This document shows, in pieces, positions 11,726 through 44,100 of a DNA stretch of 64,000 nt. Origin of the DNA: Viola odorata (Eukaryota; Streptophyta; Magnoliopsida; Malpighiales; Violaceae); assembly GCA_963691705.1 (NCBI GenBank), contig OY829538.1, positions 14,906,443 through 14,970,442 on the forward strand. Direction: 5' to 3'. Both the position numbers and the translations under genes were made by a program. Within the stretch, counting starts at the first letter, position 1, and the number at the start of each line of letters is the position of its first letter. The notes beneath the pieces were generated by a model. That model was given only the letters and a program-made list of their open reading frames with translations. It did not search any database and had not been told where the DNA came from.

Positions 11726-11734
11726 TTTAAAAAG

Positions 11735-21636: not shown

Positions 21637-21856
21637 CTGTCGCACCCCCTTTTTGGATTTAATTGCGCGACGCAAATTTGGGACTAGATGTGAGATGAAA
21701 TCTAGACTCATCTCACATAATGCATATGAAGTCGCCACCCTATTTTTGTTTCTAGGTTTAGGGAACCTATCGTTTGAGAACATGGCAGAAAACAAAATAA
21801 AAAGCTAAAGCAAGATGGGTCTGAACCCGAGAACAGCGGTTCGGGGTCGTATTATG

Positions 21857-21885
21857 GACTCGGGAAGGTGTTAGGCACCCGAGTC
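21857..21885. promoter_or_regulatory. Conserved LTR hairpin, copy 2
   Basis: Arms GACTCGGG / CCCGAGTC and loop identical to copy 1. Confidence 0.6.
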
Positions 21886-22945: not shown

Positions 22946-22950
22946 AACTT
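22946..22950. repeat. Left target site duplication of the Tat element (AACTT)
   Basis: Identical to 40199-40203. In the intact Ogre 3' LTR the site occurs once (..GAGTAACTTCAACC.. near 9727). Confidence 0.95.
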
Positions 22951-23146
22951 TGATAACTATCGATACCACAAAAGCGACATCTCCACTACCCCGCCGGGTG
23001 ACCTGGCCAGCATACTGTACCCCCCGCGGGTGACGAGGCCCTATTCTTACCGTCCTTAGCCTAGCGACCGACCCTGGGATGGTCGACATCAGCGGGGGGG
23101 CTCTCATGCGGCATCCGCACGGCGGCATCCCATCCCAGGTCATCCA

Positions 23147-23169
23147 TGACGTCACTCCGCATGACGTCA
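23147..23169. promoter_or_regulatory. Two TGACGTCA boxes, 15-bp period
   Basis: TGACGTCA at 23147 and 23162. This palindrome is the core site of plant bZIP (TGA-type) factors and pairs of it resemble as-1 elements. It lies about 100 bases upstream of the TATA box. The 3' LTR has three. Confidence 0.65.
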
Positions 23170-23254
23170 CTCAAGGCCACCCCAGCGGCATATATCACCC
23201 CAGCGACACCTGCCAGGGATTATTCCCACCCCCTATCGGTACACTCCTTCCTTT

Positions 23255-23267
23255 CCTTATAAATACC
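23255..23267 (+). promoter_or_regulatory. TATA box of the Tat 5' LTR
   Basis: CCTTATAAATACC; copy at 39985-39997 in the 3' LTR. Expected start near 23295. Confidence 0.8.
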
Positions 23268-23470
23268 CCCACCTTTTCAGACAGGAGGGTAAGCCTAAGA
23301 TAGCGTATTGAACCCCTGCCACTTTGACTACCTGCACTGACTTTGGCATCGGAGTGTTTACGCTGGAGACCCCCTCCGGCACTCTGCAGGTGACGAAGAC
23401 CCCAGTACAGTGTTCCCGACCAGCCCAGATCAGGCCGATTCTGCTCAGTATCCCCCGGACTCTTATCAAG

Positions 23471-23489
23471 TGGTGCTTTCATTGAGAGC
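23471..23489 (+). other. Tat primer binding site
   Basis: TGGTGCTTTCATTGAGAGC two bases after the LTR. The same form of site is known from Tat-lineage elements such as Grande-type ones; I do not assign the tRNA. Confidence 0.8.
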
Positions 23490-23553
23490 TTTGGTTAATT
23501 AAGTGAGTTTTCCTTAGTGACCAAGCTCTGTTCTTTCTGAGAGTCGAAGGATC

Positions 23554-24351
23554 ATGGCTTCAAATCCAGAATCCACACCCCCTCGTACTCGTGGGGTTCA
23601 CGCGCGTAGGGAACTTTTTTCCACGTCTTCGTCAAGTACATATGTCACATCACGTGAAACTTCCTCTGTGCAGACAGACTTTCTTTTTGGGCTGACAGCT
23701 GGCACTCCATTTTCTCAAATGGGCACCCCATTTTCGCAAACGGGTACCCCGTTTCCACAAATGGGTTCCCTTATTTCCTCAATGGGCGCCCCATTTTCTC
23801 ACACGGGCGGATCCAGTCACTCCGTCCCTCCTCTTGTAAGCTCTAGGATGGATGACCCTACTACTCCGTCGGTAAGCTCGATGTTAGCTCTTCGTGCCCA
23901 CTTGGACTATTTAATTGGGATGGCCGCAGGCTCCACTTCTAGTGCAGCGACATCAAGCGTGTCTTCTCGAGTTATTTTCACTCCGTCTATTGTCGCTGAT
24001 CGACCAGTATCGCCTCGTCGTCGGGAGAGCGTCCCTCTGACCTCACCTGCGATAAGTATGCCATTTAGCTTTGCGCAATTGGCAGACGGACAGGAGGAGC
24101 ACTACGTACCGCGGATACCGCGGATTCCTGTCTCCCAAGTGGAGCGATTGGTAGATGAATACAGAGAGCGTTGGGATGGTAGGAGAGAGGGAGCCAGTAG
24201 GGAGGTATCTATGGAGCGGAGTGAGAGATCAGGCAGTAGGAGGCGATGGACCCGTTCGCCTAGGAGTCGTAGCCAGTCTTCCAGGCAGCATCGTACCCCT
24301 GGAGCCTTGAGGGCACAGGCGACACTTAGACATGTCTCCTCCTCGTCATGA
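23554..24351 (+). CDS. Tat gag N-terminal part, 265 residues
   Basis: Starts ATGGCTTC 65 bases after the primer site. Residues about 52-85 hold five imperfect eight-residue repeats (GTPFSQMG type). Then comes a Ser/Pro-rich stretch and a basic Arg/Ser-rich end (about 205-250), suggesting nucleic acid binding. The conserved gag core lies in the next frame from 24332, so this frame ends through a single frameshift near 24340. In the living element it was the N-terminal domain of one gag-pol protein. The N-terminal extension has no domain I recognise. Confidence 0.75.
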   Translation: MASNPESTPPRTRGVHARRELFSTSSSSTYVTSRETSSVQTDFLFGLTAGTPFSQMGTPFSQTGTPFPQMGSLISSMGAPFSHTGGSSHSVPPLVSSRMDDPTTPSVSSMLALRAHLDYLIGMAAGSTSSAATSSVSSRVIFTPSIVADRPVSPRRRESVPLTSPAISMPFSFAQLADGQEEHYVPRIPRIPVSQVERLVDEYRERWDGRREGASREVSMERSERSGSRRRWTRSPRSRSQSSRQHRTPGALRAQATLRHVSSSS

Positions 24352-26041
24352 TCGTGAGATCTTGGACGACACTGCTGGTCATCCTTTCACCCACCGTGTA
24401 AGGCACCACAGGGTCAGCCGGCATGTTAAGCTCCCCGCGGAATCATACGATGGCACCAAAGACCCCATCTCGCATCTTAATAAGGTGAAGGATTTCGTTC
24501 AGTTTCAAACGCACAATGACGCGGCGTTGTGTCAAATATTCGTTATGACATTGTCAGGAGTAGCTCGCCTCTGGTTTGAAGGACTTCCTGCTTGATCAAT
24601 TGATAATTTCCCGCAACTGGAGGCCAAGTTTAAGAGTCGCTTCAGCACAGCTATCCCCATTCGAAAGTCCGCAGCAGCCTTGTTTGATATATGTAGAAAA
24701 CCAGAGGAGTCTTTGAATAGTTATCTTGGTCGTTTTGATATAGAAATGTCGTTAACTCCTGGTATTACCATTGATTTCTCCATAGAAGCTTTGAAGCAAA
24801 ATTGTGGATATGGGAAGCTGAGAGATACGCTGATGGTGGATCCCCCAACGACTTTAGACGTGTTAAGGTTAAAGGCTCACAATTATGCGAGAATGGAAGA
24901 AGAAGAATATAGAAACAGGATACGGGATGCGCCCCAGAACGCCCCTCCTGCTCCCACGGTTCAAGGTAGTATGACCCACGACACCCGTCCAGGTGACGAA
25001 TACACCCAGCGGAAAGATTACATCCTTAAGGCATCGAATCTCCAGAAGGGTAATTACCCTAGAGGAAGGGGCGGCGGTCTGAATGTTCAGCGACATGGGG
25101 ATCCCCCTAAGGGTCGAACGTACGATCCCGACCTTCCTCCCCTTACACTCCCACGAGCGGAGATCTTAGCCATCATTCAGCAGCGGGACCTGCCGATCCG
25201 CTATCCGGTCCCTGTAAAGCCAGGGGTGGTTATGGGAGGAAGGGAGAACGCTTTTTGTAAATTTCATAAGGTTAAGGGGCATTCTACAGAGGCATACAGG
25301 GAATTGAAGTTAGCAATAAAGTGCCTGTTGGAAGAAGGCTATCTTGGAGAATTCGCCACTAGTATGAGAGAAGAAACCAGGAGCGACCCTCCACACGGGG
25401 CGTTAGGTGACCATCAATTGCCTCCTCCCCTTGGGAACAGCGGAACTTCTGAGGCAAAGGGGAAAGAAGCGCTAATGATGTATGACGAGGACATCCCCAT
25501 TATTAACATTATCGCTGGGGGCGCGTCGTTCCTGGATGAGATTATCCCAGCAACACTCATGGCAGGAGAGAAGCGGAAACAGGAAGGCCAGCCTGTAAAA
25601 AAAGGAGTGATTGATGCACTGGACAGGATGGTAATATCTTTTTCGGAAGAAGATAAGAAGGGCGTTGTCTTTCCTCAAAATGACGCGCTAGTAGTCACAC
25701 CGGTTGTTGGGAGCCATGGCGTGCGAAGGACCCTCATTGATAATGGCAGTGCGGTGAACTTATTTTCTTTGGAAGCATATAATCTCATGAAACGCCCTGC
25801 CGGTGAACTGGCGCCTTGCAAGAAACCAATCATTGGAGTGGACGGCATCCCTATACCTGTAATTGGAGTCACAACGCTGCCTGTGTATTTTAGAGAAGAC
25901 GCGTCGAAACGATCAGAAGAGTTGATGTTCTTGGTTGTGGATCTTATCCTACCGTATAATGCCATTCTAGGGCGGCCATTCCTCAATCATTTTGGGGCGG
26001 CGGTATCTCAGAAACACCTCAAGATGAAATACCCCTCTTAG
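24332..26041 (+). pseudogene. Tat gag core, zinc-finger-like motif and protease
   Basis: Gag core: YDGTKDPISHLNKVKDFVQF, ..LSGVARLWFEGLP.., ..SLNSYLGRFDIE. A TGA at 24593-24595 stands where relatives have Gly (LP-G-S). A zinc-finger-like CX2H..H motif (FCKFHKVKGHSTEAY, near 25253) has Tyr in place of the last Cys. The retropepsin active site reads DNGS (Asp at 25739) rather than DT/SG and is followed by AILGRPFL. The frame ends at a TAG (26039) and continues in register into RT, so that stop is a mutation. Otherwise complete. Confidence 0.85.
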
Positions 26042-27394
26042 GAAGGGGTAGTATCGATCAAGGGCGATCAAAAGCTAGCCGTCGAGTGTTATTCGCTCAT
26101 GATTCAAAAAAGTTGTGATCAATATGTGTGTGTGGCAGCGGATCCCTATGAGCAAAGGGATGAAAGACGAACCCAGCCAGTGGATGGGATGGTGTCCATC
26201 CCCGTCCAAGGCAATGATAAGGCGAGCTTCCAGGCCAGTGACAAGTTGACCCTTGAGGAGAGAGCACAATTAGCCCGGTTGTTGAACAAGTGCAAAGGAG
26301 AGTTCGCGTTGAAACCGGCGGACATGCCTGGCGTGTCTAGGGAAGTGGCTGAGCACCGACTCAATGTTGACCCACGCGCCACGCCAGTTCAACAGAAGCG
26401 GCGAGCATTCTCCACGGAAAAGTCGGTGGTGATTGATAAGGAGGTAGTAAAGCTGATGAAAGCGGGATTCATCCGAGAAGTCCAATACCCCACTTGGTTG
26501 GCCAACCCCGTCTTAGTCCACAAGCCCAACGGAGACTGGCGCATGTATATTGACTTCACTAATTTGAATGACGCTTGTCTTAAGGACTGTTATCCGCTTC
26601 CTCGGATTGATCAGTTGGTCGATCAAGCGGCAGGGTACGCATATTTGAGTTCCCTGGACGCCAATTCTGGATATCATCAAATTCCTATGGCCAAGGAAGA
26701 TGAGGAAAAGATGGCATTTATAACTCCGAAGGCCACCTACTGCTACACGGCAATGCCGTTTGGCTTAAAGAATGCAGGGGCGACCTTCCAGCGTATGGCC
26801 AACAAAGTGTTTGAAAAGCAAATCGGGAGAAATGTAGAAGCGTATGTAGATGATGTATTGGTCAAGAGCAGAAGTTTCAGTGACCATCTGACCGATTTGC
26901 AGGAAGTGTTTGATACATTGAGGAAGTACCAGATAAGGTTGAACCCCCGCAAGTGCGCGTTTGCATTCCAAACGGGAAAATTCTTGGGGTACGTGGTAAG
27001 CCAAAAGGGCATCCAGTCGAACCCGTCAAAGATTAAGGCTATCCATGATATGATATCGCCGCGAACCCTCCAGGAGGTTCAGAGGTTAACAGGACGCGTC
27101 ATTGCTCTGGGGCAGTTCATCTCTAAGCAGGGCGAGAAGTGCTTGCCGTTCTTTAAAGTCATACGTAAGAAAGCTTCTTTCGGATGGACACAAGAGTGCG
27201 AAGAGGCGTTCGTGAGTTTGAAGACACACTTGTCGTCCGACTTGGTACTAACGCGACCGGAACCGGGCGACACCCTATTCTTGTACCTCGGTGTCGCGGA
27301 TGAAGTGGTCAGTGTCGTTTTGGTCCGGGAGGATAATCACGCCCACCGCCCTGTGTTCTTTGTTAGCCATGTGTTAAAAGATGCCGAGGTGTGA
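26042..27394 (+). CDS. Tat reverse transcriptase and first RNase H
   Basis: In register with the gag-protease frame. RT motifs run in order: KAGFIREVQYPTWLAN, GDWRMYIDF, LSSLDANSGYHQI, MPFGLKNAGATFQRM and the active site YVDD at 26843-26854, then FLGYVVSQKGI and the RNase H start (FLYLGVADEVVSVVL). The first RNase H has lost its usual acidic residues, as is common in Tat elements with a second RNase H. Closed by TGA at 27392 in V-R-YTHIEK, a likely CGA to TGA change; the next frame continues without shift. Confidence 0.9.
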   Translation, partial: EGVVSIKGDQKLAVECYSLMIQKSCDQYVCVAADPYEQRDERRTQPVDGMVSIPVQGNDKASFQASDKLTLEERAQLARLLNKCKGEFALKPADMPGVSREVAEHRLNVDPRATPVQQKRRAFSTEKSVVIDKEVVKLMKAGFIREVQYPTWLANPVLVHKPNGDWRMYIDFTNLNDACLKDCYPLPRIDQLVDQAAGYAYLSSLDANSGYHQIPMAKEDEEKMAFITPKATYCYTAMPFGLKNAGATFQRMANKVFEKQIGRNVEAYVDDVLVKSRSFSDHLTDLQEVFDTLRKYQIRLNPRKCAFAFQTGKFLGYVVSQKGIQSNPSKIKAIHDMISPRTLQEVQRLTGRVIALGQFISKQGEKCLPFFKVIRKKASFGWTQECEEAFVSLKTHLSSDLVLTRPEPGDTLFLYLGVADEVVSVVLVREDNHAHRPVFFVSHVLKDAEV

Positions 27395-28936
27395 TACACC
27401 CACATTGAAAAGGTGGCATTCGCCCTGCTACAGTCCACACGGAAGATAGACAGGTACTTCCAGGCCCATCCAGTCATCGTGCTCACGGATCAGCCTTTGA
27501 GAAGAATTCTTAGGAAACCAGAATCCTCGGGGAGGATGTTGATTTGGTCAATTGAGCTGGAACAATATGGATTACAGTACAAAGCCCGGCCATCCATAAA
27601 AGCTCAGGTTTTGGCGGATTTTATCACCGAATGTACATTTACTAGGGACAAGGCAGCGGAGCCGCTCGAAAAGAAAGAAAGTAATGCAAAGGTCCCACCC
27701 TCAGAAGCCCCCGCGGACATATGGGTCATCTATGTAGATGGCGCCAAAAATCAAGAGTTGGCGGGAGCTGGCATATACATGATCGGGCCATATAATGTGC
27801 AGGTGCGGCACACCATTAGAATCCTACAACCATTATCCAACAACGCAGCAGAGTATGAAGTGTTATTGGCGGGGCTTATAGTAGGAAGGAGCCTCTTCGC
27901 TAAAAATGAAAATGACCTGGTAGCAGGAGCCCCATGGTTGAGAATACGAGGGGACTCCAAATTGATAGTTGATCAAGTCTTGGGACATTCCCAAGCTAGA
28001 GAACCGATCATGGCGCAATACCTCTCGAAAGTGAAAAGGGAATTGGAAGAAATGGAACAAAGCGGCGTGTGTGTTACTCTCGAACACATTCCGCGGGAGG
28101 AAAATATAGAGGCGGATAATCTTGCCAAGGCGGCAGCTAATCAGGAGGCTGTCATACCAGAAGGCGTGTACTATGAGGAAAGGTCATTACCGTCCTTCAT
28201 GGAGGAACAACTATCGCTATGTGTGGAGGAGATTGAAAAGGACTGGAGGGTCCCTGTGATAAATGTTTTGAAGCACGATGAGTTGCCCAGCGACAGTACA
28301 GAGAAGAAAAAAGTGCTGAAGCAAGCGGCAAGGTGCACTTATTATGATGGGGAGTTAATTCGGAGATGTTTCTCGCACCCGGCCGCAAAATGTATAACGG
28401 AGCAAGAAGGCCTCCATACCCTGCGTGAGATTCATGAAGGCATCTGCGGCATGCACGTGTCGGGTGGTACCATGGCCGCGCAGGTGTTTCGGTCAGGATT
28501 CTATTGGCCCACTATTCGCAGGGATTGTAACAACTTTGTGCAATCATGCCTTAAGTGTCAAGAATTTGCCAAAATCCCTCGACGACCCGCCACTGAAATA
28601 TCTCAGATCGTGGCGCCTTGTCCTTATGCCAAGTGGGGAATCGATATTTTAGGCCCTTTTCCTAAGGCCAGGTCTCAACTGGAATTTATAACTGTGGCAC
28701 TGGACTACTTTACCAAATGGGCAGAAGCGGAAGCGGTAGCCAGTATTACGACAGAGAAGGTATGGCACTTCTTTAAGCACCAAGTGATCATGCGTTTCGG
28801 GGTACCTCGCGTGCTAGTTAGCGACAACGGGGCACAGTTTACCAGCCACTTCTTCAAAGAGCAATGTGAAGAATTCCAGATCGAGCAGAGTTTTCCTCTG
28901 TGGCGCATCCTCAGACTAATGGCCAGGCGGAGGTAA
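27395..28936 (+). pseudogene. Tat second RNase H and integrase (N-terminal and core)
   Basis: Continues the polyprotein. The second RNase H has the full acidic set: VIYVDGAKN, NNAAEYEVLL, RGDSKLIVDQV, REENIEADNLAK. The integrase zinc domain follows (HEGICGMH.., CLKC, 28430-28560), then the core with GIDILGPFP and VSDNGAQF. Near 28895 a frameshift moves the reading into the frame at 28900. The doubled RNase H is a Tat hallmark. Confidence 0.9.
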
Positions 28937-29456
28937 CCAACCGAAGCATACTAAGCGGCATTAAGAAAAATCTTGAGGGGTCGAAAAAGAAGTGGCCAGA
29001 CGAGCTACCTTATGTAATGTGGGCTTACCGCATGACTGTCAAAACTAGTACGGGGGAAACGCCCTTTGCGATGGCCTTTGGTACCGAAGCGGTAATGCCT
29101 GTTGAAATTGGCACCCTAAGCTTAAGGGTGGAATATTTCAAGGAGGAGTTAAACGAGGAAAGGTTACGTGCTAACCTTGATATGCTGCCTGAGGCGCGCG
29201 AGGAAGCCCTCTTGAAAATAATGCACTACAAAAGAAGAATGGCGCGGTATCACAACAGACATGTTAAGGAGCGGCTGCTCAAGGCGGGAGACCTCGTGTT
29301 CAGGGACAAACGAGCAGCGGGCCAACGAATGTGGAAACTCAGCTCAAACTGGGAGGGCCCGTACCGCGTCACTCGTGTTATCGGAAAGGGAGCATATCAC
29401 CTCGAAACGATTGACGGTACTCCCTTACTTAACTCTTAGAATATTGCTCGATTAAA
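28900..29456 (+). pseudogene. Tat integrase C-terminal part
   Basis: Opens with AHPQTNGQAEVTNR, which holds the catalytic Glu. Then WAYRMTVKTSTGETPFAMAFG and the basic GPYRVTRVIGKGAYHLE tail, as in Tat integrases. A TAG at 29437 precedes the expected final residues. No chromodomain is seen, as expected outside chromoviruses. Confidence 0.9.
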
Positions 29457-29540
29457 ATTATATCATGCTAGAATTTGACATGCTGTTGAATTGGTCTTGA
29501 AATAGAAATTGAATTTGTCTTGAAATAGAAATTGAAAAGT

Positions 29541-31035
29541 GACATGCCGTTGGGCATGGTCTAGAAAATAAAATAGACATGCCGTTGGGCATGGTCTTGA
29601 AATAGAAATTGAATTGAAATAGAAAATAAAAGCGACATACCGTTGGGCATGGTCTTGAAATAGAAATTGAATTGAAATAGAAATTGGAAAGTGACATGCC
29701 GTTGGGCATGGTCTTGAAATAGAAATTGAATTTGTCTTGAAATAGAAATTGGAAAGTGACATGCCGTTGGGCGTGGTCTTGAAATAGAAATTGAATTTGA
29801 ATTGAAATAGAAATTGGAAAGTGACATGCCGTTGGGTGTGGTCTTGAAATAGAAATTGAATTTTAATTGAAATAGAAATTGGAAAGTGACATGCCGTTGG
29901 GCATGGTCTTGAAATAGAAATTGAATTGAAATAGAAAATAAAAGCGACATGCCGTTGGGCATGGTCTTGAAATAGAAATTGAATTTGTCTTGAAATAGAA
30001 ATTGAAAAGTGACATGCCGTTGGGCATGGTCTAGAAAATAAAATCGACATGCCGTTGGGCATGGTCTTGAAATAGAAATTGAATTGAAATAGAAAATAAA
30101 AGCGACATGCCATTGGGCATGGTCTAGAAATAGAAATTGGAAAGTGACATGCCGTTGGGCATGGTCTTGAAATAGAAATTGAATTTGTCTTGAAATAGAA
30201 ATTGGAAAGTGACATGCCGTTGGGCATGGTCTTGAAATAGAAATTGAATTTGAATTGAAATAGAAATTGGAAAGTGACATGCCGTTGGGCATGGTCTTGA
30301 AATAGAAATTGAATTGAAATAGAAAATAAAAGCGACATGCCGTTGGGTATGGTCTTGAAATAGAAATTGAATTTGTCTTGAAATAGAAATTGAAAAGTGA
30401 CATGCCGTTGGGCATGGTCTTGAAATAGAAATTGAATTGAAATAGAAAATAAAAGCGACATGCCGTTGGGCATGGTCTTGAAATAGAAATTGAATTGAAA
30501 TAGAAATTGGAAAGTGACATGCCGTTGGGCATGGTCTTGAAATAGAAATTGAATTGAAATAGAAAATAAAAGCGACATGCCGTTGGGCATGGTCTTGAAA
30601 TAGAAATTGAATTTGTCCTGAAATAGAAATTGAAAAGTGACATGCCGTTGGGCATGGTCTAGAAAATAAAATCGACATGCCGTTGGGCATGGTCTTGAAA
30701 TAGAAATTGAATTGAAATAGAAAATAAAAGCGACATGCCGTTGGGCATGGTCTTGATATTGAATTTGTCTTGAAATAGAAATTGGAAAGAGACATGCCGT
30801 TGGGCATGGTCTTGAAATAGAAATTGAATTGAAATAGAAAATAAAAGCGACATGCCGTTGGGCATGGTCTTGAATTGAATTGAAATAGAAATTGAATTGA
30901 AATTGAAATAGAAATTGAATTGAAATAGAAATTGGAAAGTGACATGCCGGTGGGCATGGTCTAGAAATTAAAAGGGACATGCCGGTGGGCATGGTCTAGA
31001 AATTGAAATGTGTCATGCCGGTGGGCATGGTCTAG
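29541..31035. repeat. 27-copy hairpin minisatellite after pol
   Basis: Each copy has CATGCC-GTTG-GGCATG (a 6-bp stem with 4-base loop, extended by GAC/GTC with one bulge), followed by a spacer of GAAATAGAAATTGAATT words. Spacing is 33-94 bp, most often 58 or 65. The last three copies have loop GGTG. The repeat leaves long minus-strand frames open in all phases (up to 509 codons); these are artefacts. The Silene element Retand also carries an amplified tandem repeat here. Confidence 0.9.
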
Positions 31036-31108
31036 AAATTGTTGTGGAGATATTTCTTGTTCCTTGTTGGTTGTCTCTGTAATGTGCAGATAACAAGGAA
31101 AGGAGGAT

Positions 31109-31595
31109 GTCGGGGGTGAAAAGTCCTAGCCTTGGGGCAGAACGGGCTAATGCAGATGGGTCGTCAAGAGGAGGCACGCCCCGGCGATCCTGGAAATATA
31201 TGGTGCTGGAAGTGAAAAATTCTGGCCTTGTGAGGCCAGCCTTAATCAGGCGGCTCGCTAAGATGAGACACGCTCCAGCACTGTCGGGAGTGAAAATCCT
31301 AACCTGGGGAAACCCAGAGAGGGCACGCCCCGACTCCCCTGGGGTGTAAAGTCCTATCCTTGTGACAGCCCGTGCTCACATAGGCGGATGATCATTAAGT
31401 GAGGCACGACCCTAGGGAAGATAAAAACTCCACCTCGCAAGTGAAAATCCTATCCTTACGAGGGTAGCGCTAACATAGGCTCCTCGTAAAGAAGGGGCAC
31501 GTTTCGAGGTGCGAGGGCAACGCTGAGGAAGTGAAAAGTCCTATCCTCGTGATGGCTGGCCCTTATCAGGCGGCACACTAAGAGGGGGCACTTCC
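31109..31595. repeat. Six consecutive modules with covarying closing stems
   Basis: Modules at 31109-31185, 31203-31281, 31283-31334, 31338-31416, 31431-31511 and 31527-31595. Each starts with an arm, then GTGAAAA-TCCT.., and ends with ..GGCACG and a complementary arm. Arms: GTCGGGG/CCCCGGC, GTGCTGGA/TCCAGCAC, GTCGGG/CCCGAC, CCTGGGGT/ACCCTAGG, CACCTCG/CGAGGTG, GGAAGTG/CACTTCC. Inner stems also occur, e.g. CTGGCC/GGCCAG, CTGGG-GAAA-CCCAG and TTACGAGG/CCTCGTAA. Arm sequences differ but pairing holds. Confidence 0.8.
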
Positions 31596-32153
31596 CGGCC
31601 GATTGAAGAAATACGGGAAGTCACGGTACCCCAACTAGTAACCGGAAGGGACAAACCCGGCGAAGTTTGGCTGGAAGAGTACATGACACGTGCGACATCG
31701 GGCGGAATAGTGCCAAGTGAGTTGGGGAAATACACGCCCACACCCCAAGGTAATTAAGATATTTTAGTAGATTTCGCTACTAATATAAATGATAAGTGAA
31801 AATGTGCAGAAAATTCGGCACAAGCGATATCTCGGAAGGATCGCGCTGAGAAAGTGAGGAGCGCGCGCGGCAATGGCCCAAGGTAACTAAGGCTTTTCGG
31901 GAATATGTCGCTACTAACAAAAGTTATAAGTAAAATGTGCAGAAAATTTAGTAAAGTGTCAAAGTGATGGAACACTTGGAAAATAATGACGCCGCGGAGA
32001 AGCAGAGCGTCTAAAGGGGAGATCCAGTCGTCTCAAGCATGGTACGAGATAATGGCGAGGAGCGGATCTACCCTATTGCGCGAGGAGAAATGCACGACGA
32101 CATGACGTGTTGTGACCCCGCAAGGGAAGCTCAAAGGCGCAGGCCACATCAGT
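31596..32153. other. Tat 3' region with a 75-bp direct repeat
   Basis: CCAAGGTAA-TAAG..TTTCGCTACTAA..AATGTGCAGAAAATT occurs at 31742-31818 and again at 31874-31948. A shorter echo (AATGTGCAGATAACAAGG) is at 31081. No gene is seen. Confidence 0.65.
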
Positions 32154-33509
32154 TCAACGATGGCAACCAGTTTTAGAAAGAAGGGCTAATGAAAGTAAAG
32201 TGAGAAAGATCATCGATAAAGTAAAATGATGGCAAATTGTGCAAACTGTTTGTACAAGAGGGGATACTTGTTTAAATAAAAGGCCCCAAAAACACAAAAA
32301 GGACAAAGAAGTTGGGGCGCCCGATGGACCAAAAGAGAAGTGACATTTACGCCCTGGGATGCTGTTATCCCCCTCGCTATGCCGTGGCCTCTTCGCTTGA
32401 TGGTAGCCCTCTTCCGTGAGGAACCCGGACTTCTGCTTGAACAGGCGGATAATGGCATCAGCGTCGAAGAAATTGCGGCCGTGACGCTCAATGTAACATT
32501 CGGCCATGAGGCCTGCAGTTTGTTCCATAAACCATTTACACTTGTCCGCCGTTTCCTCCGTAAGAGCGGCATTCTTACTTTGCTCCGCTTGAAGAGCGGC
32601 ATCCCTCGCGGCCTAGTGTCCTTTGGCCTCTTCCAATTCTTTCCTCGCAACCCCCAAACTGGCTTCCACACATTGTCACTCTTCAACACTCTTCCTCAGC
32701 TCCTCTTGAGTTTTATGAAGTTCCCTTTGGTACTTGCTGATTTCTTCCAAGAGCTGGTGATTAGTGTTGTGCCATTCCTGGGAGGAAGATTGGAGAGAGC
32801 TCATTCGTCTCGTCACATTCCTAGACCAGTAATGGAAACCCTGAAAGCTAGAGAACAGCTGGGTTCTTATCTGCTGCAGTTGCTCGCCCTCGGCAATAGA
32901 GAGGAAGGCCTGCTCCTCCTCCTCAACCGACATCAGATGCCCTGCCAGATAGGCGGATGTCGCTAGGGAGCTGTCGCCCCCCAATGCTGGGAACCCGCGC
33001 TGGCGAATGTTGCTTAAATCAACTTGATGGGTGGCGGCTCCGCTAGAGAGTATAGTGCTTAGGTCAGCCACTATGCGCGGAGTGTCCACCGGGGGAAGAG
33101 AGGGAGAGACTGTCTGAACAGCAGTAGGAATGAAGAAGACATCAGGAGGGGACGGAGGGGAACGATTAGATGGTCCAGCATCAATATTGAAACCGCAGGT
33201 TGGTAGGGAAGGAAAGTCCTCCTCTGCAAGATCCTCCAAGAAGTCCAAGGGATTGCCAGGTGGAGGAGATGACGCGACAAAAGAAGAGTGAAGCGGCGCA
33301 GAGTTAGCCCCGTTCCCTGCCAGACCAGAGCGTTGATGACCCACCAAGGGTCCGGTATCGGTGACGCTGCCTTGCCTCCCCTGACCAGCGGTAAAGTCGC
33401 TCACTGAAGTTGAGTCCTCATTAAGACGCGGTCGCTTGGGGTCAAGAATACCCGACAAATCCATGCCGTCGCGCGAAGGAGTACCAGAAGAAGCAACAAC
33501 AGCGGTATC

Positions 33510-33586
33510 CTACGTGCAAAAGAAATAGGGGAATTAAGAAGCGGACACAAAATATGCAGACGAAGAAAATCTTATGAAAAAACCAC
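33510..33586 (-). other. Intron 2 of antisense gene A
   Basis: 77 bases, donor TTTAG|GTGG, acceptor GCACGTAG|GATACC, phase 0. The last exon codon is now TAG, probably from CAG. Gene B has no intron here. Confidence 0.55.
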
Positions 33587-33894
33587 CTAAATAGGGGGAC
33601 AGGTAGGAGCGATAACGCGAAGTCGGAGAGTTCTTTTCTTCTTTCTTGCAATGGGAGGATGAGAAGATGACGCTCGAGTAGGAACAACGCTAGGGGAGGA
33701 AATTGGCTCAGCAGTTGATGTGGCAGTAGCCTCCGCCCGAGGAAGAGAAGAGGACTCAGGTGCAGAAGTGGACGCGGGCGTGGTGTTAGTCATGACACCA
33801 GCCGAGGTAGCAGAAAGAGCCCTTTTTTCTCTCTTCTGCTGAGCTCTTCTCTCTCTTTTCTTGATGCAGTCAGGTTTCCACCCGGCGGGAGGAT

Positions 33895-33964
33895 CTGTAG
33901 AAATAAGAAATAAATGTTAGAGTTAGTATTGGCATGGAACAGTGAACAAAGGGACGGTGCTCAC
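33895..33964 (-). other. Intron 1 of antisense gene A
   Basis: 70 bases, donor CAAA|GTGAGC, branch-like TACTAAC, pyrimidine tract and acceptor TTTCTACAG. Phase 1, the same position, phase and donor as in gene B. Confidence 0.75.
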
Positions 33965-34850
33965 TTTGAATGCAACCCTGGATGTCGTCCCGGTATGCGA
34001 GTTCGCGAGTGCGAACACCAGGAATCCCCGACAGGTTGAGTAGCTTGTCCAGCCAGCCTTGGTCAACTGGCCCTAACTCTGGCCTGCCACCCCAAGCAGC
34101 GTCTCTGACGACGAGATTAAACTCGCTTCGCTACAAAGGCTGGGGCAGATTGATGATGAAGAATCCTTTCTTCCAAGCATCAATAGAAGATTCAAGGAAT
34201 AACAGCTTCCAAGTAAAGGGGTTTAGAGCTTCAACATCATAGCGAGGCGATATCGCTATGACGCCGTTGTTATGGTGGTACAATTGAAAAAAGGGAGCGA
34301 AGTAACAACAAGGAAGGAGATTCATTCCCTATATATTTACAGAGGGCTATAAAAGCATAAATGTCGCAGTAGGCGTTTGGACTCAATTGGGTAGCATTCA
34401 GATCAAATTCAGAGAATAACTAGGCAATTAAAGGATCTAGAGGCAACCGAAAACCATAATGAAACATTTTGGCATAAAGAACCCTACTGTTGCCAGGTAA
34501 TTCGCTATTAAGGCGAAGGGACTTTAGGGCAACTTCAGTAGAATACCCCTCCAGCTGGTCGAGAGTAGCATTATAGCTCCGTAGGCGCCGTCGAAGGATG
34601 GTGGTGGAAGCAATGGTGGAAGCAGTAGTATCAATATCCCCCTCCCCAGCAGAGCGGGGATAGCGGTGATTACGAGCCATGAGCAAGCTTAAAAGAAGAA
34701 TAGAGAGGAAGGTACCTGTGGTGAGGAGAAGATCGAAGCACCCGGGCGGCGGCGGATCGTAAGAGGAAGAAGAGGGATTGTCTTTTCTGTTCTTTCTTTT
34801 CGCTTTCGAAAGAGAAAGGTAACAAAAGATAAAGAGAAAGCACGTGGGGG

Positions 34851-34860
34851 TTTTATAACC
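34851..34860 (-). promoter_or_regulatory. TATA box for antisense gene A
   Basis: Minus strand GGTTATAAAA about 170 bases upstream of the ATG, followed by a CACGTG box and a CT-rich leader. Confidence 0.6.
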
Positions 34861-35356
34861 CTAAGGACTAAAGGGAACGACGGGTCAAGTGATTGTAGTG
34901 TGTGACGTGTTATGGCCAAAGAGACGCAGGAAGCGGGTGCAATCCCTGAGGAGCGAAATGACATGCTCAGTCCGCCAGTCTTTTAGCGTTCCCCTTTGAT
35001 GACACGTGGGCTCAAAGCATCATGACTGTCTCCCCCGTATCAAATAAAAGGAGTCAGAGCATTAAAAGCTCTGAAAATGGCGCAGTCAAACCCGGCAAAA
35101 AGGAGCGGCAAGATGTAATGCCACGGCATGCAAGAGGCAAAGTGCGAAGAAAATGTAGTCAAGCGGCATGTGATAAAGGGCGACATCGTTAAGAAGCACG
35201 CATTATTTGGTCAACATTACAAGATCTGTTAATTATTACAAGCAAGGAGGCGACGTCAAAGTCCAAATGGGAAAAATAATACAACAAAGGAGTAAGTAAA
35301 GAAGCGACACCAACAATCAAGCAGCATCAAATGGGCCCTTCCCAGGCACTGACCCA
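34861..35356. other. Spacer between antisense genes B and A
   Basis: Holds the region upstream of gene A and the 3' flank of gene B. No other feature seen. Confidence 0.5.
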
Positions 35357-37522
35357 CTACTCCTCTTCGGAGGAGAGGAAGCCCTCTTGGCTCTCATCAA
35401 TCTCTTTCATCCTGGCGGAGGCATACTTGGCGATCTCAGTGGGATCAGTGGATCTGCTGCGGTGCTGATCTGTCACCCCGACAATAAAGGCTTGTTCAGT
35501 TTTCTTCTTCCACCAGGTCACCTTCTTGAAAGCCTTCGATAGGTCCGCATCGCGGGAGGATACCTCCTCAAGAAGGAATGAGTTTTTCTTCCTCTCAGCC
35601 ACCAACTCAGCCTCTAAAGCTTCAACCTGGGCTTTTCCTTTAGATCTTTCCCGAGAAAGGTCAGCGCGACACTCGCGCAGTTCGGCCTGAGCGCGTTTAT
35701 GGAGTCGCGACAGCTCCTCTACCTTTTCTAGGGCACCAGAGTTTTGAGCTTGGGCACTACGAGCTTTGATGAAATAATGAAGCTGTCGCAAGGCAGCAAG
35801 GCAGTTGTTCATGACGCGCACATACTGAACTTCGGGAGGAAGTTGCAGTAGCTTACTCTCCTCCTCGGAGGCGCGAAACATCTCGCAGGCCAAGATAGCC
35901 GTGGGCTGATCTTGCGATAAGGGGTCTGATATACCCAGGGCACGAAACCCGTCAGTCCCAAATTTTGACAGATTTAGCCGGTGAGAGGGGGCCCCTTGAG
36001 GCCCGTCGCGGGAAAGATCAGCAACAAAGCAAGGGGTGGAGATACCGCCTGAGCCCCCGATGTATCGAATTGAAGTAAGGAACAACGGGCAAGGGGACTT
36101 CGGGGGAGAGTGAGAAGAACCAGGTCCGCTTGGGACTGAGGGAGGCACGTCAAGAATACAGGGGCTAATGGGCGAGTGTGGACGCTCCATGACAGGAGTG
36201 GAATCTGTAGCGGATGGCGGCATCGTCGCGGTAGAGGAGGTCTTGTTGGGGGCAGCCAGCCCTAGAGTCGAGGAAGCGCCACCCAGTGAAGCGGCACCCT
36301 CCATAGTGGTGTCGGGACAAGCGGCAGTCTGGAAAGAAATGGTAGTGGCGGCATCGCTTGGAGGAGATTGAGCAGCCATCTTGGTCACTTGAGCTTCGCT
36401 TGCTTCCCTTAGTTTCTTTCGTTGAGCGGAGGAAGCCGGGCGGAGGCTCAGTTCCGTGTCCATGTCCTCCATGTCCTCGACTCCGTAGGAGAAAATCTTT
36501 ATCTCAGTCACTGGCAAACCAGACCCGGACCTCTTCTTCCGACTGGGTAACTAGTTCTCCACGAAGCGGGAAGTGCGAAAGGAGGAACCGCTTTCCCTGG
36601 AAAGAATCTCGTCTAAAGCTCTTTTCTTTATAGGCATACGGTGATCAGCTCGAGCCCCAGCGGAAGTAGAGGGAGCAGTCGTTGAAGGGGCGGCAACCTT
36701 GTGAGGAGCGTCACCTTCGGAGAGCGGACGAGCGATGGTCTCCCCTACGAAAAGTTATGTTAGTAAACAAGGGGTAAGCAAGGTAGCGGCGAAGCTCAAA
36801 AGCTCACCTATGGTACACTCAGTTAAAGGCCTGTACAAGGAAAAGTTTCGGATCTGGAAGGAGGACTCTATCTCCAGTAAGGCGTTGGCCTGATCCAACT
36901 CTTCCCTAGACAGAGGCGCTGGCCTCGCGCAATCAACCACCTCCAGGTTGAAATCAAGACGCCACAGGCGAGAGGGTAATTCGACAACGAAGAAACCGCT
37001 CTTCCAGTTTTCGACGTTCCCCTCAAATCCTCAAAATTTCTGCCAAAAAGGCCTCACTAGAGCATCATCCCATCTTGGAATAATATTAATGAAGCCGTCG
37101 CAAAAAACCAGAGTCAAGAACTTGCGAAATAAAGCGACAGAGGGAGCAAGAATGTCTTTTAATTCGCAAGCATGAAGGAAGGCGTAGATGCAACTCCATG
37201 AGGAAGGGGTAATCTGCGCAGGGTTAAGTCCGTACTCGCGCAACACACGCTCTAGCGTGTCATGAACTGGGAGGCGGAACCCATATTGAAACATTTTAAA
37301 ATAAAGAATCCTATGAGTTTTCCAGAGCCGGCTATGAAGCCTCATAGTGTCAGAAGGAATAGTGGGGCGATAGCCGCAGGGGAAGGTAATATTATTGCTT
37401 TCCAGTTTGAGGCGTAAGACAGTGGGGCAAGTAAAGATGCTAGGGGTGTTTTCAAGTTCGGGATATCGAGAAATTGGCCTAGGGGTAGCTAAAGAGCTAG
37501 ATTGAGATCTCGTACGAGGCAT
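35357..37522 (-). pseudogene. Tat antisense gene B, paralogue of A
   Basis: Start MPRTRSQSS at 37522. Exon 1 (37522-36808) holds KMFQYGFRLPVHDTLERVLR, a helix-rich stretch and WKSGFFVVELPS, matching gene A and the Transposase_28-like family. Exon 2 (36744-35357) holds TPCFVADLS, LSKFGTDGFRALG, then about 110 residues of coiled coil (EKVEELSRLHKRAQAELREC onward) and an acidic end. Two stops break it: TGA at 37031 and TAG near 36551. About 700 codons otherwise. Its C-terminal 386-codon frame (36517-35357) is fully open. Similarity to A spans the whole length but is low, so the duplication is old. Confidence 0.8.
36745..36807 (-). other. Intron of antisense gene B
   Basis: 63 bases, donor ATAG|GTGAGC, branch point TACTAAC 15 bases before the acceptor TTTTCGTAG. 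Unspliced, the frame meets TAA inside it; spliced, it joins the downstream frame in register. Short for a plant intron. Confidence 0.75.
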
Positions 37523-37701
37523 GATAGATAAAGCAGCAAAGGAAAATCAAAAGCAAGATCGAGCAGAATACCTTGAAAGAGAGAAGACTGAAATTAATAG
37601 GCGAGTCGTCTAGATGCAAACGAGAGAATTTCCTCGGAGCGAGCGAAAACGAAGAGAGTTCTGAAGTATAAAAAGGAGCAAAAAGGTACGAAGAAGGAGC
37701 G

Positions 37702-37714
37702 TTTTTCCTTTTAA
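37702..37714 (-). promoter_or_regulatory. Possible TATA-like box for antisense gene B
   Basis: Minus strand TTTTAAAAGG about 185 bases upstream of the ATG, the same spacing as the gene A box. Weak match. Confidence 0.3.
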
Positions 37715-38035
37715 AAGAGACGGTGGAAAAGTCAGACAGAAAGGCAACCTATCACAGCAAGACACGTACGGGACAAATGGGACACGTGGAAAGACCCTGA
37801 TAGAAACTTAAAGTCAAGCGCTCGCCTCGAAGGTCGTAAAAGAAAGACTCGTTAATTACAAGAAACCCCACAAAGATGGTCGTATGAAGCGGCAATTGGC
37901 TGTCCAGCGGCAGTTATCCTATGGGGCGGCGATTATAACAAAAGCGAAAAGAAAAAGGCAAATAACATTTCGATTCATTTCATTCTGTTTTATTAAAAGA
38001 GAAAGCCAGCGGCATCTACAATAAGTGCCACATCA

Positions 38036-38525
38036 TCAGTCTTCGTCCGCCCAGTGTACGTCATAGACGTAATCATAATCTTCCGGAGACGATGGCGACC
38101 CGCTGTTATAGAAAGGAAAGGGCTCGCCAATCTCGAAAGGTCTTTTACCAAGCCCAGTCGCGGAACCTGTCATAGGCGCAGTTTCCTCCTTTGAAGCGGC
38201 ATGGGAGCTTTCCCACAGGGTCGGGGTAACCAGTCCTGTGACGGCATCTTGCATAGAAGTCCCGTCCTTGGGAAAAGGACAAGGGACGGATGGTGACACT
38301 TCATCCTTTTGCCGCAACAAAAGGTAGTGAGGTTCAAAGTCAGCAAAGAAGGATTCGAAAGATTGTTTCTTTGTTTTCTTCAATCTCTTGCGACCCCGGC
38401 ACTTTACGGAATGTCTGGCAGGCCTCCAGGGGGGTGAGAGCAGAGGATTGTCGGAGTCGGGAGAAGTTGGAGGGGTCGGAGGAGAATCGCGGGCGGCAGT
38501 ATACAAAAAAATGGGAGTCAGCCAT
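38036..38525 (-). pseudogene. Tat antisense gene C, about 160 codons
   Basis: A TATA box at 38591-38600 and a CT-rich leader precede ATGGCTGACTCC at 38525 (good plant start context). The first codons (MADSHFF) enter a T7 run, after which the coherent reading lies in another frame to 38036. This implies a one-base slip in the homopolymer. The product would be rich in Pro/Ser with a basic patch (GRKRLKKTKKQ), a QSFESFFADFE segment and an acidic end (YDYVYDVHWADED). I recognise no family. Reading upstream from 38593 would give a false signal-peptide-like start. Confidence 0.55.
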
Positions 38526-38590
38526 GGAAATATCAGTAAGAGTGAGAAGCAAGAAGGAAAAAGATGAACAGAGAAGGAAAGGTAGAGCCC

Positions 38591-38600
38591 CATTATATAG
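38591..38600 (-). promoter_or_regulatory. TATA box for antisense gene C
   Basis: Minus strand CTATATAATG 66 bases upstream of the ATG, followed by a pyrimidine-rich leader. Confidence 0.6.
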
Positions 38601-39070
38601 CCGAGGTGAGGAAGCGTGCCTGCCTTTTCGCGTATTATCGAGGACAGTTAATACTATCAGAGATAACATCTGTTGGGGGGAAAGATCTGACTCCGCAACT
38701 GTCAAAAGGCTGCACTAGCCAGGAGGCACCGAAATCATTGCCCAATCCGTTAACACTGAAAAACGGCGCAAAATATATTCAGAACGGATGCGATATGGGA
38801 AAATTGTCATTACGAGCCTGGTAGGCAAACAAAGTTACGGGATCCCAAGGAACACCAAGCCCACAATAAGTGAGAAGAAAAGTTGTTTTCTGAGAAAGAC
38901 GATATGAGAAAGAAGAAAAACATTGACAGCGCGGCAAGTGAATAAGGGAAAGCATATTTATTTAAAGGGCTCAGCGGCCCGGGATTACAAAAAGGCCTAA
39001 CGGCCCGGAGTTACAAAAGGTGGCCCCAGAGGAGCACAGAAAGACACACCAAGAGGATCCCCATCGCTGG
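38601..39070. other. Spacer between antisense genes D and C
   Basis: No supported gene. Short plus-strand frames here lack any family motif. Confidence 0.5.
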
Positions 39071-39457
39071 TCAGGCATTCGACCTAGCGTCATCATCTTC
39101 CCACTCCAGGAAAGGAATTTCCCTCAAGGCATCCGCAAGAGCGGTCAGTTTAGAGGAATATGCCCTCATGCTCTTCAGGCAGCATCCCAACAAGTCCTTC
39201 CTATGCTGTAGCGTCGTCTTCAGCAGCTGAATCTGAGAAACAGCCACTAACAGCTTCACCGCTTTCTCCACGGGACTGAAATCCTCCAGGGTAACAGCAA
39301 CCTGTCTAGCTTGCAGGGGAGTCAGCATCCCCTGGAGCTCCAGTATATCCTCCGAGGTCTTAACGCTCAGTGAGCCCAGGAAATCGGTGTCTGTCTGAGT
39401 GAGGTTCCTCAGGGCATGGGTTTTGGAGAGCAGGAAGTTTTTGGTGACTTCGTCCAT
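39071..39457 (-). CDS. Tat antisense gene D, 128 residues, intact
   Basis: Starts MDEVTKNFLL and is open to a TGA. Predicted mostly helical with regular Leu spacing (LLVAVSQIQLLKTTLQHRKDLL) and an acidic end (WEDDD). A canonical TATA box lies 78 bases upstream of the ATG with a CT-rich leader between, just inside the 3' LTR boundary. It is the only one of the four antisense genes with no damage. I recognise no family; the heptad-like Leu pattern suggests a small coiled-coil protein. It could also be a 5' part of a longer spliced gene. Confidence 0.6.
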   Translation of the reverse strand: MDEVTKNFLLSKTHALRNLTQTDTDFLGSLSVKTSEDILELQGMLTPLQARQVAVTLEDFSPVEKAVKLLVAVSQIQLLKTTLQHRKDLLGCCLKSMRAYSSKLTALADALREIPFLEWEDDDARSNA

Positions 39458-39534
39458 GAAAAGAAGAGAGATAAAGAAATTTGAAGAGAGGTGAAAAAGT
39501 TGAGAGAGTTATGAGGCAAGTGCAAAATCAAAAG

Positions 39535-39545
39535 CCTATTTATAG
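39535..39545 (-). promoter_or_regulatory. TATA box for antisense gene D
   Basis: Minus strand CTATAAATAGG, near-consensus for plants, giving a start near 39507 and a leader of about 50 bases. Confidence 0.7.
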
Positions 39546-39684
39546 ACTTCGGAAAAAGGCATTTCGAAGATGTACCTTTATCGATCGTAGAGCCCACATT
39601 AGGGGAGAAACCTCTGAAGGGGCAGGACCGGAGACTCTGTGATAGCCCTTGGTGAACGCTCGGGCTAGTTTTCGTTTGGGCATA

Positions 39685-40198
39685 TGATAACTATCGATAC
39701 CACAGAAGCGGCATCTCCACTACCCCGCCGGGTGACCCGGCCAGCATACTGTACCCGCCGTGGGAGACGAGGCCCTGTTCTTACCGCCCTTAGCCTGGCG
39801 ACCAACCCTGGGATGGTCGACATCAGCGGGGGGCTCTCACGCGGCATCCGCACGGCGGCATCCCATCCCAGGTCATCCGTGACGTCACTCCGCATGACGT
39901 CATCCCGCATGACGTCACTCAAGGCCACCCCAGCGACACCTGCCTGGGATTATTCCCACCCCCTGTCGGTACACTCCTTCCTTTCCTTATAAATACCCCC
40001 ACCTTTTCAGACAGGAGGGTAAGCCTAAGATAGCGTACTGAACCCCTGCCACTTTGACTACCTGCACTGACTTTGGCATCAGAGTGTTTACGCTGGAGAC
40101 CCCCTCCGGCGCTCTGCAGGTGACGAAGACCCCAGTACAGTGTTCCCGACCAGCCCAGATCAGGCCGATCCTGCTCAGTATCCCCCGCATTCTTATCA
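39685..40198 (+). repeat. Tat 3' LTR
   Basis: TGATAACTATCG.. to ..CATTCTTATCA, partner of 22951-23468. Holds three TGACGTCA boxes (39880, 39895, 39910). No clean purine tract abuts its left end; the nearest purine-rich stretch is near 39600. Confidence 0.95.
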
Positions 40199-41099
40199 AA
40201 CTTCAACCTTTGGTTGAAGTCGGCAATTGCTCGTGATAGAGAGCAATGCTAGAGAGGGAGAAGGTGTTCGTGAATTGGCGAGGAGAAATGAGCGCACGAG
40301 TTTGCTATTTATAGGCGAGTTAAGTCGGTGGGGGCGATGACGTGTCGACAAGCGGTGGTGCGGACGGTTGCGTGGCTGAGGATTGTTGGCAAGGCTCGAG
40401 GCTGCTGGTCCAGGTGCATTAATGGCTCATTGGAGGGACGATCGAGGAATGACTTGATCGGGAAGAAACGAGGATAGTTGCTTTCTTGGTTTTATGCATG
40501 AACCAAAAGAAACAATGCATGCTTATGTGTTAATTATCTCAACCATTTGATCTTGTTTGACTTTCAAAGTCAACTAGATCAATGGTGGAGATAAAGAGCT
40601 TGATTTATTATTTAATTATTCAGTTCCAGTTGATGGTACGAGCAATTTTGCCTGAAAATGAATATAAACTCAAACTGAAAATGTTAAGACGTATAATAAA
40701 ATAAAATAACATGATTAGCATATAGTGAGCGAGGAAAAGTTCGTTGTATCGCTCGATAAAAAAATTCGCTTATAAGTGACAAAAGTTCGAATAGAAAAAA
40801 TGCTAAAATAAAAATTTGAACGAAAAGCAATGGGATAGCGCGAGCTAGAAATATAATAAAACATAAGTAGCTAAAGAGCGAAATTGTTCGACCATTGGTT
40901 TCAAGAATTTTACTCGGAACCGATATGAACTCGAATGGGAAAAGTGATAAAAACGGTTAAAAGGTATAAAATAAAACCTAAATGACATGAAACGTGAAAA
41001 TAAACATCAGTTGGATGAAAAATAAATAGAAATACAATCTTAGAAAATTGATATTAAAATGTGAAAAAGTCTTGATGAAAAATAAAAAATCGGGTAGCA
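40199..41099 (-). repeat. Ogre 5' LTR, outer part
   Basis: After the AACTT duplication (40199-40203) it resumes as CAACCTTTGGTTGAAG and matches 9733-10626 to the end GGGTAGCA. Contains the Ogre TATA box (40305-40315, minus), now 17 kb away from the leader it should drive. Confidence 0.9.
40305..40315 (-). promoter_or_regulatory. TATA box of the Ogre 5' LTR
   Basis: Minus strand CCTATAAATAG, separated from the rest of its LTR by the Tat insertion. Confidence 0.65.
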
Positions 41100-41104
41100 A
41101 TAGT
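41100..41104. repeat. Right target site duplication of the Ogre element (ATAGT)
   Basis: Partner of ATTGT at 8359-8363, one mismatch. The next base resumes the Athila frame. Confidence 0.75.
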
Positions 41105-44100
41105 TGTAGACCCACTTACTGAAGAAATTACCGATATCTCCACTAACGACCCCCTTGAGTATGTTTTAAGTAGGGGATTATCGACCAAGCAGCTGAAGGA
41201 GTTGGAAGAGAGAACCGGAGTTCAGAGGGAACTTCAAGAGATATTGGCCGACCTCAAGGAGACAAATCGTAACTCTGACATGGTGATTTGTCAATCATTA
41301 CAAACCACAGATGCTAAACTTTTACCCTCTATTGTGCAGGCACCAAGGATAGAATTGAAGGCCCTGCCTGATCACCTAAAGTACGCCTTTCTTGGCCAAG
41401 CCGATAGCCTACCTATGATTATCTCGAACAAGTTGGCGAAAGATGAGGAGGATAGATTAGTTGCTGTACTGAACGAGCATAAAGAGGCGATAGGCTAGAC
41501 ATGAAGGACATCAAAGGGATATCTTCCACCATATGCACCCACAAAATACACGTGGAAGAGGATAAGAAACCCACAAGACAACCCAGAGGAGATTAAACCC
41601 TCCAGTGATGGAAGTTGTCAAGAAAGAAATAATAAAATTACTTGATGTTGGGGTAATTTATCCAATTTCTGACAATGCTTGGGTCTCTCTTGTGCAGGTG
41701 GTACATAAGAAGATAGGCATCACAGTGGTTGAAGGCGAAGATGGGACGAAAAAGACCACTCGGATACAAAACGGGTGGTGAGTCTACATAGACTACCGAA
41801 AGCTGAACTAAGTAACCAGAAAAGATCACTTCCCACTGCCTTTCATCAACCAAATAGTGGAGAGACTAACTGGGAAGTCACCCTACTGCTTTCTAGATGG
41901 GTATTCAGGCTTGCATCAGATCCCGGTGGCACCCAAGGATTAAGAAAAAACAACCTTCACTTGCTAGTTTGGAACCTTTGCCTACAAACGCATGTCGTTT
42001 GCATTGTGCAATGGTCCAACAACATTCCAAAGGTGCATGGTGAGCATCTTTTCAGAATATATGGAGAAGAGCATTGAAGTGTTCATGGATGACTTCACCG
42101 TTTACGGTGATAATTTTGATCAGTGTCTTTTTAATTTGATAAAACATTCTTTTTAGTTTTGATCAATGTCTTTTCAATACATGTTTGGTTCTTAATTTCA
42201 AGAAATACCATTTTATGGTTGACCAAGGCATTGTCCTTGGCCATGTAGTGTCAAAAAAGGGAATAGAAGTGGACTAGGCCAAGATAGATATTATCAAAAG
42301 TTTGCCTTACCCCTCATGCTTGCGTGAGGTCAAAAGTTTTCTTGCCCATGCTGGTTTTTATCGCAGTTTCATCAAGGATATTTCAAAAAATTATGGAACC
42401 AATATGTAGCTGTTGCAAAAGGACATGGAGTTCAATTTCGATGAACCTTGTCAGAAGTCTTTTGAGGAGCTGAAGGAGAGGTTGACATCAGCACCTATCA
42501 TACAGGCACCTGACTGGAGCTTGCCCTTTGAGCTGGTGTGTGATGCTAGCAATGCAGTTGTCAGTACTGTTCTTGGGTAGAAGAAGGGTAGAGATCCACA
42601 TGTGATCTACTACGCCTCTAAAATGCTAGATGAGGCCCATAAGAATTACACGACAACTGAAAAAGAACTGTTTACAATAATCTTTGCCCTTGAAATATTC
42701 TGACCATGCAGCCATAAAATTCCTCTTGGCTAAGAAAGAGGCCAAGCCCAGACTAATACGTTGGATTCTTCTCTTGTAGGAATATAACTTGGAAATTAAA
42801 GACAAGAAGGGAAGAGAGAATCTCGTAGCAGACCACCTCAGTAGATGCCTTACAAAGGATAATCCGGAGCCGGTGAGAGGAGTTTCTAGATGAGCACCTC
42901 TTCTTAGTCCAGACGATAAGGCCCTGGTATCCAAAAATTGTAAATTTCTTGGCCAAAGGTAAACATCATGGGGACTTAACCACCTAAGAAAAGGTAAAAG
43001 TTAAACATGACAGTAGGCATTTTATTTGGGATATGAAAGATAGGGTCAGATCAATTACCTAGGAGGTGTGTTGCCGAAAATGAAATTCCTTCTGTTTTAA
43101 AATTTTGTCATTAACATGCATGTGACAGACATTTTGGGGCTAGAAGGACAACCCTAAAAATTCTTGAGTCTGGTTTCTATTGACCGACTATCTTTCAAGA
43201 CTGTTTTCTCTTTTGCAAAACATGCCCTGAATGTCAAAAAGTGGGTAATATAAGTGCCAAAAATCAAATGCCAATGAATTTTTATTATTTCTTGTTAAAT
43301 ATTTGATGTGTGGGGCATTGATTTTATGGGACCTTTGCCAAGCTCATTTGGCAATCGCTATATATTGTTGGCTGTGGACTATGTTTCTAAATAGATAGAG
43401 GCAAAAACGACTAAAAATGATTATGCTAGAACTATTGTTTCATGTATTAAATCTAACATTCTTAACAGGTGTGGCATCCCTAGAGGGAACTATTGTTTCA
43501 TGGATCATTAGTGATCGAGGGACCTATTTCTGCAATAGAATTGTTGAGAATTTATTCAGGAAATACAACATCACTCACAGAGTGTCAACAACCTATCACC
43601 CATAAACCAATGGCTAGACGGAAGTGTCGAACTGAGAGGTAAAATCAATCTTGGCCAAGACAGTTGGCCCAGAAAGGTGAGATTGGAGCCAGCGATTGGA
43701 TGAGGCATTGTGGACATATAGGACGACCTATAAAACACCAATCGGGATGAATCCATACAAGCTAGTGTATAGAAAGGCCTGCCACCTACCTATAGGGATG
43801 CAACACAAGGCGTACTAGGCAGTCAAGGGATGTAACAAGAGTTATGATGAAGCTAGAGAGGCAAGGAAACTACAAATACATGAGCTGGATGAGCTGCGCA
43901 ATCAAGCATATGACAACCAACTCATTTTGAAAACTAGGATGAACAATTATCATGAAAAGAAAATTATAGAAAAACCTAACCTTGCAGGGAGTGGGAAATT
44001 ATTTCCTAGTAAACTTAAAACAAAATGGGATGGGACATATTTAGTCACTAATGTTTATCCACATGGTGCAGGTAACATAAAGAATGAGAAGACAAGAGTC

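Follow-up and report, generated by a model that had tools for sequence, protein, structure and literature searches.

A putative cassette of four antisense genes in a Retand/Tat-type retrotransposon of Viola odorata

Known antisense genes and the Viola odorata element

Long terminal repeat (LTR) retrotransposons of the Retand group are already known to carry an open reading frame (ORF) with a TRP28 domain (Transposase_28) in antisense orientation; in the available text of one survey it is a hallmark of the group, absent from two of 63 clusters (PMC11963269), and in that of another, Transposase_28 is reported from 23% of Retand elements (PMC6317226), while the accessible part of a third paper deals with other lineages (PMC11728184). 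A single antisense gene with a promoter of its own is likewise known from the maize element Grande, where gene23 is transcribed from an antisense promoter and has a nuclear product (PMC7264820). Here we describe a 64,000-nucleotide stretch of the Viola odorata genome (contig OY829538.1, positions 14,906,443 to 14,970,442; hereafter the window), in which a Retand/Tat-type element appears to carry four genes, in the order D-C-B-A, between pol and the 3' LTR, all on the minus strand and thus against the element. We favour the reading, with a probability of about 0.77, that these form an antisense protein cassette whose members have their own promoters, with a clear TATA box for D, C, and A and a weak one for B.

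The window element is assigned to the Retand/Tat type of Ty3/gypsy LTR retrotransposons, a placement made by domains and not by reverse transcriptase (RT) phylogeny. It spans 22951-40198 (17.2 kb), is flanked by a 5-bp target-site duplication (AACTT), and has LTRs of 518 bp (22951..23468, plus strand) and 514 bp (39685..40198, plus strand), in keeping with such duplications and with the LTR length of 315-1,194 bp published for Retand (PMC11963269). The pol region, encoding RT, RNase H, and integrase, lies at 26099..29439 (plus strand) in three overlapping or adjoining ORFs (RVT_1, 3.7e-34; rve, 8e-12). Two further Retand traits, a long region between pol and the 3' LTR, often with tandem repeats, and an antisense TRP28 ORF within it, are also found here: a tandem repeat array follows integrase at 29481..31044 (plus strand), and gene B supplies the TRP28 ORF. 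The region is about 10.2 kb long in the window element, whereas the published Retand range, as far as the survey's available text gives it, is 2,933 to 6,566 bp (PMC11963269).

Beyond what that text describes for Retand, the window element has two old TRP28 paralogues, introns, and the short genes C and D. The survey counted ORFs of at least 600 bp and shorter ones only with TRP28, so that neither C (489 bp) nor D (387 bp) would enter its count, and a term search of its main text returned neither "intron" nor "two antisense" (PMC11963269). We found no description of a cassette of four genes, two of them short and conserved, in the literature searched, of which parts were available; an earlier mention of short ORFs is possible. 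Like the window genes, Grande gene23 is an accessory gene that reads antisense, sits between pol and the 3' LTR, and has a promoter immediately before it, but in the available account Grande has one gene, for which transcription has been shown, whereas the window element has four, known from sequence alone (PMC7264820). Retroviral antisense genes of the HBZ type are comparable in being accessory genes close to the 3' end of their LTR element (PMC11963269, PMC7264820); the antisense promoter of human T-cell leukemia virus (HTLV) is located in the 3' LTR, according to the portion available (PMC7264820), whereas the candidate boxes of D, C, and A all stand outside the LTR, that of D being 141 bases into the element, the LTR itself not having been scanned for antisense promoters.

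Gene structure and selection within the family

A preliminary description of this DNA had proposed four antisense coding-like units between integrase and the 3' LTR, and a three-frame reading does find all four minus-strand start codons, at 39457 (D), 38525 (C), 37522 (B), and 34680 (A). Gene D (39071..39457) encodes 128 amino acids, is uninterrupted in the window copy, and is open in 18 of 20 other copies; gene C (38036..38525) encodes 162 amino acids in 7 of 20 other copies. Gene B has two exons (36808..37522 and 35357..36744) separated by one intron, with the donor GT present in 18/18 copies, and its first exon holds a TRP28 domain (PF04195; E 1e-12, 48.5 bits against a cut-off of 26.2). 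Gene A has two introns and three exons (33965..34680, 33587..33894, and 32409..33509), the donor GT of the first being kept in 17/17 copies; the true end of the third is uncertain, as the frame continues to 32154. Frames and splice signals are thus directly visible; A and B are spliced, and in this copy C and A are frame-slipped (61 and 86 amino acids).

Homology between genes A and B extends over both halves, the first exon of A matching B exon 1 (1.2e-15) and the third exon of A matching B exon 2 (3.4e-11), and A and B are best described as long-ago duplicates of one gene type, not as two unrelated genes. The 86-amino-acid open piece of A, which ends early, has no PF04195 match. A Pfam search gave no match for C and sub-threshold matches only for D; judged by that search, C and D belong to no protein family found. 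ORF length is weak evidence for any of these genes because shuffled sequence often reaches such lengths (in 500 dinucleotide shuffles the longest ORF was at least 128 amino acids in 28% and at least 163 in 5.6%); since length by itself proves little, the case for genes rests on selection and on relatives.

To measure selection on each frame, as the preliminary description had suggested, we aligned 20 genomic copies of 8 kb from the host genome with the window (up to 21 sequences), masked blocks whose likeness to the window was below 80%, left out columns covered by fewer than 10 sequences or showing three or more alleles, and compared shared variants (minor allele in at least three sequences) with singletons. 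The ratio of nonsynonymous (N) to synonymous (S) change, omega, was 0.15 for shared variants in D (N/S 6/17; singletons 1.23; Fisher test, 9e-5), 0.32 in C (17/21; singletons 1.06; 0.003), 0.28 in B (43/62; singletons 0.77; 8e-6), and 0.41 in A (48/48; singletons 0.79; 0.003). Moving the threshold to 2 or 4 sequences left every value below 1 (D 0.20/0.11, C 0.50/0.27, B 0.40/0.22, A 0.51/0.34). Pooled non-coding stretches read in three frames gave 0.81, 0.87, and 1.21, and shifted frames of the four genes gave 0.69 to 2.67, none of them significant. This pattern indicates purifying selection on all four predicted proteins, and the lack of conservation that the preliminary description had named as a refutation is seen in none of the frames.

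Diverged relatives and promoter-like signals

A PF04195 scan of the 699-Mb Viola odorata genome returned 11,413 first-look candidates, of which 150 were scored, all above the cut-off, and the 30 top-scoring TRP28 loci were examined; having been taken from the top, they are not a random sample. Twenty of the 30 form one DNA-similarity cluster, with which window B groups in the protein tree, and window A falls in the other group with support 1.000; we take the A/B split to be old. In 14 of the 20 B-type loci, against none of the 10 others, a C gene precedes TRP28 in the same orientation (E up to 0.1), and three further loci of the 20 match only the slipped frame of window C. At 13 of the 14 loci C is 35-59% identical, 10 of them being without an internal stop, and at each of the 13 the proportion of synonymous differences (pS) exceeded that of nonsynonymous differences (pN) in 300/300 bootstraps, synonymous change being near saturation.

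For nine of the 14 C loci (one picked since part of D had already been seen there) we retrieved 0.67-0.76 kb of upstream sequence, which contains D in 9/9 cases at 49-69% identity to window D; four of these nine diverged copies have a stop or a lost start. Among 11 D sequences pN was below pS in 55/55 pairs, with a median pN/pS of 0.30. In one family (L046), a single 1.05-kb piece at the position expected for A contains an A-type gene, in a copy with stops, that is 58% identical to A against 38% to B exon 1 over part 1 of exon 1, and 63% to A against 31% to B over its last part. On these pieces the D-C-B order holds at nine further loci and A follows B at the only place checked, order and strand being seen directly to be conserved. 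The preliminary description had called four separate units an unusual load: the number stands, two of the four are duplicates of one type, and the load is not peculiar to the window element, as related families of the same genome share it.

The upstream signals also agree with what had been described from the window, which was a TATA box before each of D, C, and A and a weak one before B. On the antisense strand of 31700-39684 there are only three TATAWAW sites, and these are the minus-strand boxes of D (TATAAAT, 39538..39544, 87 nt before the ATG), C (TATATAA, 38593..38599, 74 nt), and A (TATAAAA, 34851..34857, 177 nt); the chance that three randomly placed sites would each lie 50-190 nt ahead of a different ATG is 0.00017, for a range chosen after the data were seen. 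No TATAWAW on that strand belongs to B, which has a weak TATA-like block at 37707..37716 (minus strand) that is mostly TTTATAAGG-like in aligned relatives, B and its relatives having in common a TTTATAAGG- or TTTTAAAAGG-like block. Only two AATAAA sites occur in antisense, both downstream of stops, after D (38957..38962, minus strand) and after C (37989..37994, minus strand). At the diverged loci the boxes visibly recur: D has TATAWAW 56-73 nt before its start in 9/9 (one of them having lost its ATG), against a background of 0.22 per kb per strand, and a TATTTA precedes C at -73 to -84 in 13/13, standing in the context CTATTTAA in 12 (background for CTATWTAA, 0.09 per kb per strand). Around the A and B boxes, within-family diversity is 0.021 and 0.019, near the lowest 5%. 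A splice-donor-like AGGTAY motif is also present about 50-60 nt before the ATG of B-type and most A-side loci (upstream of 37522 and 34680 in the window; L029-L058), with no usable acceptor ahead of the ATG in those loci.

With TATA-type boxes and introns, the cassette genes look like ordinary nuclear genes, which could suggest that the element acquired a multi-gene segment of a host chromosome. We consider such a capture very unlikely, as the cassette recurs in many diverged element families, the genome holds 11,413 TRP28 and 6,823 D-type first-look candidates, and the A/B split is old; no search was aimed at a single-copy counterpart in the host, so that a capture long ago keeps a small probability. 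An RNA role is another alternative: the antisense strand might matter chiefly through transcripts that pair with the long 3' part of the genomic RNA to modulate or silence it, which would make the frames secondary. The four units do overlap that part, so that co-expression would yield double-stranded RNA, as discussed for such elements in the available text of PMC7264820, but this fails to explain amino acid selection in all four frames and over deep divergence; we regard it as improbable as the main role, although it may operate alongside the proteins.

Several observations weigh against a protein-coding cassette. Genes A, B, and C are broken in the window copy, leaving only D open: the C frame from 38525 reads 61 amino acids through a one-base slip absent from 20/20 other copies covering C, A reads 86 through one absent from 17/17 copies covering A and also has stops, and B is interrupted by two stops. 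Many other copies are broken as well, the open ones being 7/20 for C, 4/18 for B exon 1, and 2/18 for B exon 2, and a one-base deletion in a run of C that breaks gene C is found in 6/20 copies (L009-L028), so C may be dispensable or provided by other copies. When transitions are removed (threshold 2), D alone keeps the signal (0 N/3 S), with none in C (4/1), B (12/6), or A (11/5), from 5, 18, and 16 variants. Taken singly, A exon 2 gives no sign of selection, and the first exon of A does not differ significantly from singletons (Fisher test, 0.092). Within-family diversity around the D and C boxes (0.044 and 0.046) is not below average (mean 0.057), at locus L049 the D-type gene is not upstream of C but some 0.8 kb downstream of a B-type TRP28 gene, and fold searches yield no hint of function. 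As to the deletion in C, which may reflect shared descent or a mutational hot spot, stops recur one codon after it in L009-L028; the L049 D belongs to the abundant D-type group, in which 142 of the 150 best-scoring candidates are without a stop.

The broken genes, the stops in many copies, and a D ORF of a length reachable by chance could mean that the frames are old unused remnants and that ORFs and TATA boxes coincide by accident. This reading is already strongly disfavoured, and we give it almost no weight: constraint on shared variants and not on singletons is the pattern expected if breakage follows insertion, and diverged families keep both D (49-69% identity) and C (35-59%). The proposal that the element runs accessory genes of its own is accordingly supported by selection, by order and strand in diverged relatives, and by the recurrent D and C boxes, although three of the four genes are broken in the window copy itself.

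The host element and the possible role of its cassette

The LTR pair of the window element is 96.0% identical over 499 sites (Kimura two-parameter distance, 0.041), and its empty insertion site is visible in a paralogous copy near 9728. The element lies within a repeat that has a second copy about 13.3 kb upstream (93-96% alike), the positions concerned being 8364-10633, 21638-22950, and 40199-41106; the surrounding repeat is probably one LTR of an older element, i.e., a nested insertion. More tandem repeat arrays are present outside the element at 11728-12523, 12720-13066, and 54604-54816.

The N-terminus of protein C is well conserved and abundant in Ser, Pro, and Thr; the protein also has a basic stretch, which we presume to resemble a nuclear localization signal, and an acidic aromatic tail. 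D is small and predicted, at low confidence, to be helical. The TRP28 exon, modelled on the relative L038, gave a confident fold, for which no similar solved structure and no similar viral model was found. These features and the precedent of Grande suggest that the cassette proteins would be nuclear accessory factors, perhaps acting in transcription regulation of the element, counter-silencing, or nuclear entry. RNA polymerase II would transcribe each of the four genes separately, and antisense orientation would let the element keep introns and separate promoters through its sense RNA, since splicing would not remove introns on this strand from the sense RNA that is reverse-transcribed. More tentatively, Retand-type elements of flowering plants might possess an ancient antisense regulatory module of four genes with separate promoters, in which C and D would be two new families, controlling the element or blocking its silencing by the host, that were overlooked because they are short and on the other strand; we regard this broader picture as possible but doubtful.

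Why Retand-type elements keep kilobases of antisense sequence has been left open in the literature available and is now testable, the handles being recurrent core promoters and four proteins under constraint whose starts are defined, two of which have no family found. An ORF-length cut-off can conceal genuine genes of mobile elements, and the cassette, as read here, would show how antisense orientation allows introns in a retrotransposon.

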